From: Frondihabitans australicus
GTDB lineage: Bacteria > Actinomycetota > Actinomycetes > Actinomycetales > Microbacteriaceae
Length of the DNA stretch: 64,000 nucleotides
Reading direction: 5' to 3'
Assembly: GCF_003634555.1 (NCBI RefSeq)
Contig: NZ_RBKS01000001.1
Location: 2,232,001-2,296,000 of the forward strand
Part shown: positions 20,017 through 22,828 of the stretch, in pieces
Layout: the number at the start of each line of letters is the position of its first letter
How positions within the stretch are numbered: the first letter of the stretch is position 1
Position numbers and translations under genes: made by a program
The notes under the pieces: generated by a model
Seen by the model: only the letters and a program-made list of their open reading frames with translations
Told to the model about the DNA's origin: nothing
Database searches by the model: none

Positions 20017-21030
20017 TCAGTCGGCGAGCGGCCGGACAGCCGTCATGGTCGCGGGCACCGCCGCCGGCCACCGTGCGCCGACCAGCCCCGCCAGGGCGCC
20101 CGTCGAACCGTCGCGGCCGACGGACGAGTCCGCGGAGGCGGAGTCGCCGGCTCCTGCGTCGAGAGTCACGTCGAGCTCCATCTCGCCGCGCCCGCGCTCG
20201 AGGATCGGCGTGCCGTGGGGTTGAGCGACATCGAGGCGGCCCGTGCCGTCGTCCACGACCATCATGAGCCGGAGCTCCTGGCCGCCGACCGCGACGGCGC
20301 GCGCCCTGATCGTGCCGGACACCGGTGCGGACTTCGACAGCTCGATCAGCTCGGCGATCGTGTGTGTCGCTCCCCGGGGCTGGCCGTCGACGCGGCTCAG
20401 ACCGACCGACGCGAGCCACGCCTCGGGCCACGCCGTCTCGGGCGCATCGGAGTACATCGCGCCGACGGTGTCGACCCCGAACACGTACCGGTCGGGAGTC
20501 CGCGCCAGCAGATACGGGGTCATGACCCGCGAGTCGAGACCCTGCTCGAACAGCGCTCCATCGCGTTCCGTTTCGCTGAGCGACTCATCTAGCGCGGCGG
20601 CGTTGAGGGCCGCGACGGCTGCCTCAAGCGAGTGTGCGAGACGGAAGATCCCGGTGTCGTGCGTCGGCGAGGACCAGAGCGAGTCGTCGCCGGAGTGGCC
20701 CGGCACTTCGAGCGTGACGATTCCGTAGACGTGGTCGTCGAACACCGGGAGCCAGACCGGCGGGTGCTCCAGCTGGTCGATGCAGAACTCGCGCCACTCG
20801 AGCAGCGCGTCGACGGGGCGCATCCACCAGCCGCCGAAGACCGTCGAGCTGCCGCCGTCGCGCCAGCGATACAGGGTCTCGACCTGCTCGGTCAGGCGAA
20901 GAGGCGCGATGGCCTCGCGTAGGCGGCCCACACCGGTGTCGTCGAGTCCGGGATTCATTCCCTGCAGGAGTTCGGGACGGTTCTCATGCAGCCACAGCTC
21001 GTAGGCCGTCAGCTCGCTCGACAGGCTCAT
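20017..21030 (-). CDS. SMI1/KNR4 (SUKH) domain protein with C-terminal extension
   Basis: A 337-residue cytoplasmic protein. The first about 150 residues fit the SMI1/KNR4 (SUKH) fold, with LYRWRDGGSS..FGGWWMRPV and LPVFDDHVYGIVTLEV as core segments. The C-terminal region has a beta-rich stretch, SGTIRARAVAVGGQELRL followed by MVVDDGTGRLDVAQ, that reads like an OB-fold core, and an Asp/Ser/Ala-rich tail. SUKH proteins are often immunity proteins for secreted toxins, but no toxin gene is adjacent, so a housekeeping role is equally possible. Confidence 0.75.
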   Translation of the reverse strand: MSLSSELTAYELWLHENRPELLQGMNPGLDDTGVGRLREAIAPLRLTEQVETLYRWRDGGSSTVFGGWWMRPVDALLEWREFCIDQLEHPPVWLPVFDDHVYGIVTLEVPGHSGDDSLWSSPTHDTGIFRLAHSLEAAVAALNAAALDESLSETERDGALFEQGLDSRVMTPYLLARTPDRYVFGVDTVGAMYSDAPETAWPEAWLASVGLSRVDGQPRGATHTIAELIELSKSAPVSGTIRARAVAVGGQELRLMMVVDDGTGRLDVAQPHGTPILERGRGEMELDVTLDAGAGDSASADSSVGRDGSTGALAGLVGARWPAAVPATMTAVRPLAD

Positions 21031-21090
21031 GCCGCCAGTCTGGCGTCCGATTGCCGCGCGTCACAGCCCTCCTTCGGGTGCCCGCCGAAG

Positions 21091-21164
21091 TACCCCCGCA
21101 GGGGTTCGAACCCTGACTGTGGCGATTTTAAGTCGCCTGCCTCTTCCAGTTGGGCTACGGGGGC
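21091..21164 (-). tRNA. tRNA with anticodon UAA, class I (short variable loop)
   Basis: A full cloverleaf of 74 nt without an encoded CCA. The acceptor stem GCCCCCG pairs with CGGGGGU (G1-U72), with U8, A9 and discriminator A73. The D arm has only three good pairs with GG in the loop. The anticodon stem GGCGA/UCGCC holds the loop CUUAAAA, giving anticodon UAA (codon UUA, leucine). The variable loop is ACAGU, five nucleotides. The T arm is CAGGG/CCCUG with UUCGAAC. Bacterial tRNA-Leu normally has a long variable arm (class II), so the short loop is anomalous and the aminoacyl identity is uncertain. Confidence 0.85.
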
Positions 21165-21216
21165 GTGCCCTCCAGGGTATCGGGCCCGGCTGATCCCCCT
21201 CCCCGTCGCCGCTCGG

Positions 21217-21274
21217 GCGACAAAAAGCGACACCTGCGACGCGCGGGGGCGTCGCAGGTGTCGCTTTTTGTCGC
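21217..21274. repeat. palindromic hairpin family, copy 1 (downstream of ndh)
   Basis: A perfect 25-bp inverted repeat (arm GCGACAAAAAGCGACACC..) with an 8-nt loop CGCGGGGG begins 10 nt after the ndh stop. The inner GC-rich stem is flanked by A5 on one side and T5 on the other, so it can act as an intrinsic terminator in both directions. The same core recurs near 37.3 and 57.5 kb. Confidence 0.85.
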
Positions 21275-21283
21275 TGGAGGAGG

Positions 21284-22828
21284 CTACTCGGCAGCGGGAG
21301 CCGGCTCGGCGGCGGGCTTCTTCGCGGCGGGCTTGCGCGGCGCACGCTTCGGAGCGGCCTTCTCGGCGGCGACCGGCTCGGCGGCCTTCTCGCCGTCGGC
21401 GGGGTTCGCGTACGCCGGGCCGGGCTCGCCGGCGGCCTTCCCGATCTCGGGCGCGGTGGCGGGCCTCTCGTCGGCGGCGGTCGGCGCGACCGGCTCGGCG
21501 GGAGCCGGGGGCTTGGGGCGCGACGCGAACTCCTCGAACGCGGCACGGGGCTGCGTCACGTTGTCGAGCGAGGCGATGTCGCGACCCAGGACGGCGTTGT
21601 TGGCCCAGCCGGAGACGACGCGGATCTTGCGCTCCCACGACGGCATGGCGAGGCCGTGGTAGCCGCGGTGCGCGGCCCAGGCCGGGAAGCCCTTGAGCGC
21701 GAACTTGCCGCTCTGGAACACGCCGATGCCGAGACCCAGACCGGCCACCGCACCGAGGTTGTCGTGGCGGTAGTCCTGCGTGTTCTCGCCGCGGAGCACG
21801 GCCGTGATGTTCTTCGCGAGCTGCTTGCCCATGCGGACCGCGTGCTGCGCGTTCGGCACGCAGAAGCCGCCGACGCCGGCGCCGGTGAGGTCGGGCGTGG
21901 CCGCGACGTCGCCGCAGGCCCAGGCGTCGGGGACGACGGTGCCCTCTTCGGTGACGATGCGGAGGTCGGGCTGCACGGTGATGCGGCCGCGGGCCTCGAG
22001 CGGGAAGTCGGTGTTGCGCACCACGGGGTTCGCCATGACGCCGGCGGTCCAGATGATGAGGTCGGACTCGAACGACTCACCGGTCGACAGCTCGATCTTG
22101 CCGCCGACGGCCGACTGCAGCTGGGTGTCGAGGTGCACGATCGCCTGGCGCTCGGCGAGATTCTTGAGCACCCAGTGGCTGGTCTCGAGGGCGACCTCGG
22201 GCATGATCCTGCCCATCGCCTCGACCAGGTGGAACGAGGTGTCGTCGATCGTGAGGCCGGGGTAGTTCTTCAGGAGGTCGGTCGCGAAGCTGCGGAGCTC
22301 GGCGAAGATCTCGATGCCCGCGAACCCGCCGCCGACCACGACGACCGTGAGGAGACGGTCGCGCTCGGGACCGGCCTCGAGGTTCGCCGCCTTCTGGAAG
22401 TTCGTGAGGAGCTTGTCGCGGATCGCCTGCGCCTCTTCGATCGTCTTGAGGCCGATGGCCTCGTCGGCGACGCCCGGGATCGGGAACGTGCGCGAGACCG
22501 CGCCGGCGGTCATGACGATCTGGTCGTACTCCATCTCCCAGGCCTCGCCGACCTCGGGGGTGATCGTCGCCGTCTTGGAGGCGTGGTCGACCTTCGTCAC
22601 CTTCGCCGTGACGACGTTGGTGCGCTTGAGGTGGCGACGGAGCGCGACGACCGCGTGACGGGGCTCGATCGAACCGGCGGCGACCTCGGGGAGGAACGGC
22701 TGGTACGTCATGTACGGCAGCGGGTCGACGACGGTGACGTCGGCCTCGCCCTTGCGCAGCCACTTCTCGAGCTTCCAGGCGGTGTAGAAACCGGCGTAGC
22801 CGCCGCCGACGATCAGGATTTTGGGCAA
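21284..22828 (-). CDS. ndh: type II NADH dehydrogenase
   Basis: A non-proton-pumping NADH:quinone oxidoreductase on the cytoplasmic face of the membrane, 514 residues. The FAD dinucleotide motif GGGYAG is near the N-terminus, the second Rossmann motif VVVGGGFAGIE is at about 165-175, and the FAD-binding DAWACGDVAATPD segment is at about 305. The last 80 or so residues are an Ala/Lys/Pro/Glu-rich low-complexity tail beyond the catalytic fold. The start is TTG with AGGAG upstream; IVGGGYAG so close to the start excludes a later codon. A palindromic terminator follows. Confidence 0.93.
   Translation of the reverse strand: MPKILIVGGGYAGFYTAWKLEKWLRKGEADVTVVDPLPYMTYQPFLPEVAAGSIEPRHAVVALRRHLKRTNVVTAKVTKVDHASKTATITPEVGEAWEMEYDQIVMTAGAVSRTFPIPGVADEAIGLKTIEEAQAIRDKLLTNFQKAANLEAGPERDRLLTVVVVGGGFAGIEIFAELRSFATDLLKNYPGLTIDDTSFHLVEAMGRIMPEVALETSHWVLKNLAERQAIVHLDTQLQSAVGGKIELSTGESFESDLIIWTAGVMANPVVRNTDFPLEARGRITVQPDLRIVTEEGTVVPDAWACGDVAATPDLTGAGVGGFCVPNAQHAVRMGKQLAKNITAVLRGENTQDYRHDNLGAVAGLGLGIGVFQSGKFALKGFPAWAAHRGYHGLAMPSWERKIRVVSGWANNAVLGRDIASLDNVTQPRAAFEEFASRPKPPAPAEPVAPTAADERPATAPEIGKAAGEPGPAYANPADGEKAAEPVAAEKAAPKRAPRKPAAKKPAAEPAPAAE

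Follow-up and report, generated by a model that had tools for sequence, protein, structure and literature searches.

Can a bacterial tRNA that bears a leucine anticodon and has no long variable arm be a working leucine tRNA? Cytosolic tRNA-Leu has been described as class II, with a long variable arm (PMC9976931; PMC7609411), and bacterial tRNA genes have been described as uniform (PMC4033280). The question is raised by a 64-kb stretch of the Frondihabitans australicus genome, referred to here as the window, in which the sole tRNA reported by ARAGORN is a tRNA-Leu(taa) at 21090-21164 on the minus strand with a class I architecture. A first-pass annotation of the window had offered three options for this gene, namely a leucine tRNA that lost its arm, a tRNA charged with another amino acid at UUA codons, or a tRNA with a non-decoding role. 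The first of these is well supported by the analysis described below, while the other two are unlikely. We computed the sequence, the fold, the identity positions, the status of the tRNA as sole reader of its codon, its conservation, its near-exclusivity with class II forms and the meaning of UUA in a relative, and we infer expression, leucylation and the reading of UUA as leucine in the host itself. The resulting interpretation, to which we assign a probability of roughly 0.93, is that of a functional leucine tRNA which has no long variable arm, decodes UUA and is charged by the cell's single LeuRS.

A class I tRNA with the anticodon UAA

The features of the locus are collected in Table 1. 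The gene is 74 nt long up to the discriminator A73, and the CCA end is not encoded. Over its whole model length, Rfam RF00005 matched the minus strand of this segment at 53.8 bits (cut-off 29), which together with the ARAGORN call confirms the class I tRNA with a UAA anticodon that the first-pass annotation had proposed here. The structural details it had listed (U8, A9, U33, A37, the loop CUUAAAA, a 5-nt variable loop, A73 and a G1.U72 pair) are all present in the sequence. The acceptor stem has seven paired positions, G1.U72 included, and the D stem consists of three pairs followed by a C13/A22 mismatch. A class II tRNA would have a variable arm of at least 10 nt, as against the 5 nt found here. 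If the gene belonged to the allo-tRNAs, which are likewise non-canonical bacterial tRNAs, then its acceptor and T stems should be of the 8/4 or 9/3 type (PMC7609411); the stems have the usual 7 and 5 pairs, and this candidate was rejected. The broken stems and missing conservation of a pseudo-tRNA were not observed either.

Table 1. Features of the tRNA locus, in window coordinates.
Feature	Position	Strand	Evidence
Variable loop ACAGU, 5 nt, with conserved U48	21116..21120	-	Sequence, position table
Anticodon loop CUUAAAA (U33, anticodon UAA, A37)	21126..21132	-	Sequence; anticodon from ARAGORN
Leucine-type D arm: 3-bp stem, C13/A22, A14 A15, G18 G19, A20a	21139..21155	-	Sequence, position table
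tRNA-Leu(UAA), class I	21091..21164	-	ARAGORN, Rfam RF00005, covariation, identity positions
Inverted repeat of 27 pairs (26 exact and one G.U), probable terminator	21216..21275		Fold, terminator-like match
NDH-2-like FAD/NAD oxidoreductase (Pyr_redox_2)	21284..22828	-	Pfam PF07992, E 5.9e-40

We considered the G1.U72 pair at the end of the acceptor stem as a special signal and rejected the idea. Of 53 distinct short actinobacterial sequences, our own counted, 14 have the same pair, as do 63 of the 124 viral short leucine tRNAs among the matches listed, and the pair therefore looks tolerated. Scanning window positions 20900-21400 for a sigma-70-type promoter returned none, although such a scan says little for an actinobacterium.

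The decoding set of the host genome

The host assembly (labelled G000) consists of one contig, 4,036,723 bases long, and has a completeness of 100. It contains 46 tRNA matches, and ARAGORN was run on all of them. Exactly one was a Leu(UAA), the gene in the window, and the other four leucine tRNAs (UAG, CAA, CAG and GAG) were class II with variable regions of 13-16 nt. No second reader of UUA was found among the 46, so that a hidden class II Leu(UAA) was rejected; the additional class II gene for which the first-pass annotation had suggested a search is absent from this set. As with tRNAs of the bldA type, the gene is thus the sole reader of UUA found in the genome. Since some tRNA must read UUA and no other was found, the non-decoding role that had been offered as a third option is unlikely. 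One host gene scored above the cut-off for LeuRS, and the same enzyme would therefore have to charge both tRNA shapes.

The codon itself is rare, as the first-pass annotation had anticipated. In 864 kb of the genome, where genes had been called with a crude rule based on GC3, TTA accounted for 24 of 234,394 codons (~0.1 per thousand), and some of these counts may stem from misplaced gene starts. Four of the 24 sit in three genes of the window. With a genome of ~70% GC, this rarity of TTA is expected.

The meaning of UUA in a low-GC relative

Because TTA is too rare in the host to align in useful numbers, we tested whether UUA means leucine in G020, a genome of the same family with 46% GC over 380 kb. 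G020 has 50 tRNA matches, all within the stretches that were read, and its sole Leu(UAA) is the short form. Its nine class II-sized tRNAs comprise four for leucine (CAA, CAG, GAG and UAG), four for serine and one for tyrosine. One partial tRNA match (G020:C1:730751-730807, 34.9 bits) lies just ahead of another tRNA, and ARAGORN reads a 73-nt Glu-like tRNA in that region.

Reading frames of G020 were translated with TTA as X and aligned to frames of the host, and after five rRNA-like pairs had been dropped, 88 gene pairs were kept. Aligned TTA faced leucine in 146 of 254 cases (57.5%), the five other leucine codons in 58.8-65.0%; over all columns TTA therefore lay slightly below each of the other five. 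In conserved surroundings, where at least six of eight neighbours were identical, TTA faced leucine in 66 of 82 cases (80.5%) and the other codons in 70.6-86.0%. By this measure the codon means leucine, in G020 only, and barring an unseen tRNA it would be the short tRNA that decodes it so there. In the conserved genes of G020, TTA made up 298 of 32,178 codons. Their homologues in the host held six TTA in 38,330 codons with the rRNA-like pairs dropped; before that drop, all five aligned host TTA had been located in three short ORFs that were 87-95% identical to G020 and rRNA-like in look. UUA is thus an ordinary codon in G020, and the tRNA therefore looks like a housekeeping decoder in that genome.

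These codon counts bear directly on the possibility of a regulatory leucine tRNA resembling bldA, in which UUA would be confined to a few genes that depend on a scarce tRNA. The host taken by itself fits such a scheme, with its 24 TTA in 234,394 codons and a short tRNA that is the only UUA reader found, and a precedent has been described (PMC4932002). The rarity of TTA is, however, what 70% GC would produce in any case, and the abundance of UUA in G020 argues for a housekeeping decoder in the host's family. We regard a bldA-like role as unlikely.

Leucine identity elements

Leucine identity in E. coli has been assigned to A73, A15-U48, G18G19 and A20a, and E. coli tRNA-Leu variants without the anticodon arm and the long variable arm stay active; U8:A14 has been reported as an identity element for Aquifex (PMC9976931). 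We scored tRNAs for U8, A14, A15, U48, A73 and an 8-nt spacing from G19 to position 27 with A20a, a set that derives from E. coli and Aquifex and may not be that of an actinobacterial LeuRS. The short tRNA has A73, and it also has the A15-U48 Levitt pair, G18G19, A20a and U8:A14. In the host, the full set was found in exactly 5 of the 46 tRNAs, and these are the five leucine tRNAs. The 40 other tRNAs that could be numbered do not have it, and Thr-GGT, which the script left unnumbered, has U73 by eye.

The same scoring was applied to larger collections after identical rows had been dropped. All 53 distinct short actinobacterial Leu(UAA) carried the full set, our own counted, as did 9 of 10 short leucine tRNAs from phage and plasmid records. 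Among the matches listed, named genomes gave 111 distinct short leucine tRNAs, of which 106 carried the set and five miss part of it; of the 124 distinct short leucine tRNAs from viruses, 67 carried it and 57 miss part of it, as scored by the script. Class II Leu(UAA) carried it in 22 of 27 cases; four of the five misses were due to a short D loop or a gene start beyond the numbering of the script, and one to a different D-loop spacing. The 124 viral tRNAs among the matches listed had A15-U48 in 79 cases, G15-C48 in 29 and another combination in 16. Across viral contigs L143-L262, also among the matches listed, the Levitt pair seems to be switched as a unit, with G15-C48 in place of A15-U48.

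That the short tRNA carries leucine identity is well supported by these positions, and LeuRS would be expected to charge it. We propose such charging because bacterial LeuRS reads A73 and the corner formed by the D loop and T loop (A15-U48, G18G19, A20a and U8:A14), and not the variable arm. The single LeuRS would then leucylate the short tRNA in addition to the four class II leucine tRNAs, and the short tRNA would read UUA as leucine, possibly together with UUG by wobble.

A class I shape combined with a leucine anticodon is also the look expected of an anticodon-shifted tRNA, and a human Met-like tRNA with a CAA anticodon has been described (PMC8450103). The gene might on this account be a missense or recoding tRNA, which is charged with another amino acid and inserts it at UUA, as the second of the original options would have it. 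Such a tRNA would leave UUA without a leucine reader, and within the host genome only leucine tRNAs combine this D arm with U48 and A73. The option is moreover contradicted by the alignment, in which UUA faces leucine in the G020 homologues, and on that alignment we rejected UUA recoding, which we consider very improbable.

Conservation, covariation and gene neighbourhood

A BLAST match to the tRNA was obtained in 58 of 60 genomes, the host counted, and two genomes gave no match. The weaker matches are partly partial, and the loci that were read are the best 30 of the 58; each of these 30 holds a short Leu(UAA). Absence from close relatives, which the first-pass annotation had named as a sign of a decayed gene, was therefore not observed. 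For covariation, our sequence was aligned with those of 20 relatives. Across these 21 sequences 99.8% of 420 stem cells pair, and 10 of the 20 stem pairs show changes on both sides. Not one of 500 shuffles reached any of the five covariation measures. The fold is not due to chance.

On one side the tRNA is accompanied by a gene whose product we take to be NDH-2-like, a label of our own placed on the Pfam PF07992 match. Of the 29 loci from relatives, 20 have this gene no more than ~1.5 kb away from the tRNA; three of the 20 belong to other families of the order, and one is represented by a match of 49 residues at the end of a contig. In the remaining nine loci the gene was not found near the tRNA. 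The gene on the other side of the tRNA (20017-21030) was found near it in none of the 29. The recurrence of the NDH-2-like neighbour points to long vertical descent of the tRNA gene, presumably at one locus. The inverted repeat between the two genes, which belongs to the flank and lies outside the tRNA, folds with -56 kcal/mol (z -12), has 26 of 27 arm positions identical and contains one terminator-like match on the plus strand. It is probably a two-way terminator.

A decayed tRNA or a recent functionless phage remnant, which the similar short leucine tRNAs of phages and a Curtobacterium plasmid might bring to mind, has a negligible probability given the matches in 58 of 60 genomes, the covariation that 0 of 500 shuffles equalled, an NDH-2-like neighbour in 20 of 29 loci that extends to three in other families, and the fact that no other UUA reader was found; a pseudogene was rejected on the conservation and covariation.

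Short and long forms of Leu(UAA) rarely meet

If the short and long forms of Leu(UAA) were distributed independently, then ~49 of 296 genomes sampled across the phylum should match the patterns for both. The pattern for the short form was matched in 72 of these genomes, that for the long form in 201, both in four and neither in 27. In three of the four overlaps (G116, G167 and G350; the fourth is G122) one match is not a tRNA-Leu by eye, and ARAGORN finds no tRNA in the long-form match of G350 (L125). A sample of 148 genomes of the class gave 88 with the short form, 34 with the long form, four with both (~20 expected) and 30 with neither, and in the four overlaps (G378, G402, G405 and G448) the long-form matches are not leucine tRNA-like by eye. 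The two forms thus rarely meet in one genome and are nearly exclusive. All genomes drawn from family f21 (11 and 13 in the two samples), which we guess to be Streptomyces-like, carry the long form, as does Streptomyces bldA.

A looser pattern was applied to 17 of the 30 class genomes that had matched neither form, and in four of these ARAGORN reports a Leu(UAA); the variable loops measure 9, 7, 9 and 5 nt. The Leu(UAA) with 9-nt loops (L489 in G460 and L496 in G379) do not have the A20a spacing and their D arm differs, and the one with a 7-nt loop (L494 in G371) has C at position 20a. These tRNAs with loops of 7-9 nt are possible intermediates between class I and class II. Genome G409 (family f94; L550 and L551), also one of the 17, was read at all of its 46 tRNA matches. 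The variable loop of its Leu(UAA) measures 6 nt, and C33 replaces U33 in this tRNA, which is invisible to the short and long patterns. Its Leu(CAA) has a 5-nt loop, and its UAG, CAG and GAG leucine tRNAs are class II, so both UUR readers are short in that genome.

Short leucine tRNAs in phages, plasmids and other phyla

Named genomes and viral sequences were scanned with the short UAA form as a requirement, and the counts hence give no frequencies. The scan of named genomes returned at least 119 stretches, which by title and among the matches listed comprised 107 actinobacterial ones, 10 from other groups and two labelled "bacterium". The 10, again among the matches listed, were two Planctomycetota, two Chloroflexota and one each from Rokubacteria, Deltaproteobacteria, Chthonomonadales, the cyanobacterium Moorena, Acidobacteria and Neomegalonema. 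Since many of the named-genome stretches come from metagenome bins, individual ones may lie on a foreign contig. The viral scan returned at least 120 stretches, with 71 loci of three or more tRNAs among the matches listed.

Phage records contain short leucine tRNAs with the anticodons UAA, UAG and CAA, and the leucine-type D arm occurs together with the short architecture in Shigella phage Sf16 and Bacillus phage P59. Two Chloroflexota tRNA arrays hold several short leucine tRNAs, with the anticodons GAG, CAG, CAA and UAA in L466 and CAA and UAA in L404. Overall, short leucine tRNAs were seen with at least UAA, UAG, CAA and GAG, and with CAG in one array, L466, where the tRNA has G73, a discriminator that would not suit LeuRS if the E. 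coli rule applied. A stretch of Curtobacterium plasmid G54a (2904-3399; L142) encodes five tRNAs (Lys, short Leu(UAA), Gln, Met and Thr) and adjoins a mobF relaxase gene; the gene table of this plasmid never lists RNA genes.

These occurrences raise the possibility that short leucine tRNAs go back to one ancestor, spread through phages and tRNA arrays, and displaced the class II form in many Actinomycetota, a scenario that is compatible with the functional leucine tRNA proposed here. A similar D arm and a motif resembling CAGUGUGGGUUCGA are found repeatedly, in phages as well as in different phyla. We calculated a tree from 98 leucine tRNA rows with the anticodon and variable region removed, on which the class II label requires two changes against a shuffled mean of 25.3. 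The tree is, however, based on 67 columns, a clean single class II split was obtained in 0 of 200 bootstrap trees, one class II row falls inside class I, and the rows from phages, actinobacteria and other sources intermingle without being resolved. The likeness could also come from shared constraints. We therefore put forward this scenario tentatively, as somewhat less probable than its denial. Actinobacteriophages have been described to swap a host tRNA gene for their own, tRNA-Leu-CAA among them (PMC10865867), which hints at a possible part played by phages. The broader proposal that the short form is a second, separate bacterial leucine tRNA architecture, which circulates in phages, plasmids and tRNA arrays and replaced the class II UUA reader in much of the host's class, is speculative and rather doubtful. 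In one genome the class II UUG reader would also have been replaced by a short form. A possible benefit of the short form would be protection against toxins or nucleases that recognise tRNAs by gripping their long arm.

Relation to known leucine tRNAs

The tRNA described here is very probably a UUA-decoding leucine tRNA of unusual architecture; phages and members of its bacterial class commonly have the same short form. With class II tRNA-Leu(UAA), Streptomyces bldA included, it has in common the anticodon UAA, U8, A14, A15-U48, A73 and the leucine-type D arm; it differs in its D-stem and acceptor sequences and in its 5-nt variable region, which in the 27 class II tRNAs scored measures 14-18 nt. 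Animal mitochondrial tRNA-Leu(UUR) is likewise a leucine tRNA without the long variable arm, and the identity of the human one has been described as essentially A73 and A14 (PMC9976931). In contrast to it, the tRNA here is bacterial, has regular stems and would share its synthetase with class II leucine tRNAs. The short architecture is also common to the leucine tRNAs of phages and mobile clusters, such as those of Sf16 and P59 and a mycobacterial tRNA cluster with a tRNA-Leu(TAG) of short variable loop (PMC6582537). Unlike these, the gene here is a single chromosomal one that is widespread in the order, rather than an additional copy carried by an array.

The locus offers a natural arm-deletion experiment, since a single LeuRS has to serve both architectures within one cell, and the dispensability of the arm for leucine identity found in E. 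coli becomes testable in a native setting. It also serves as a warning to annotators that such genes are not to be called pseudo-tRNAs, and the short form may be used as a marker of tRNA replacement, perhaps with the involvement of phages.

Among the open-access papers listed in our searches, none describes a short tRNA-Leu(UAA) as the usual actinobacterial form, and tRNA databases may list it without comment. The closest reports are that of the mycobacterial cluster tRNA-Leu(TAG) (PMC6582537) and one on M. tuberculosis (PMC11541572). A term search in PMC6297222, PMC9569102 and PMC5966550 returned nothing on short actinobacterial Leu(UAA). For M. tuberculosis, tRNA-Leu-2, 3 and 5 are named as long-looped (PMC11541572), which suggests that the remaining leucine tRNAs of this species have no long loop.
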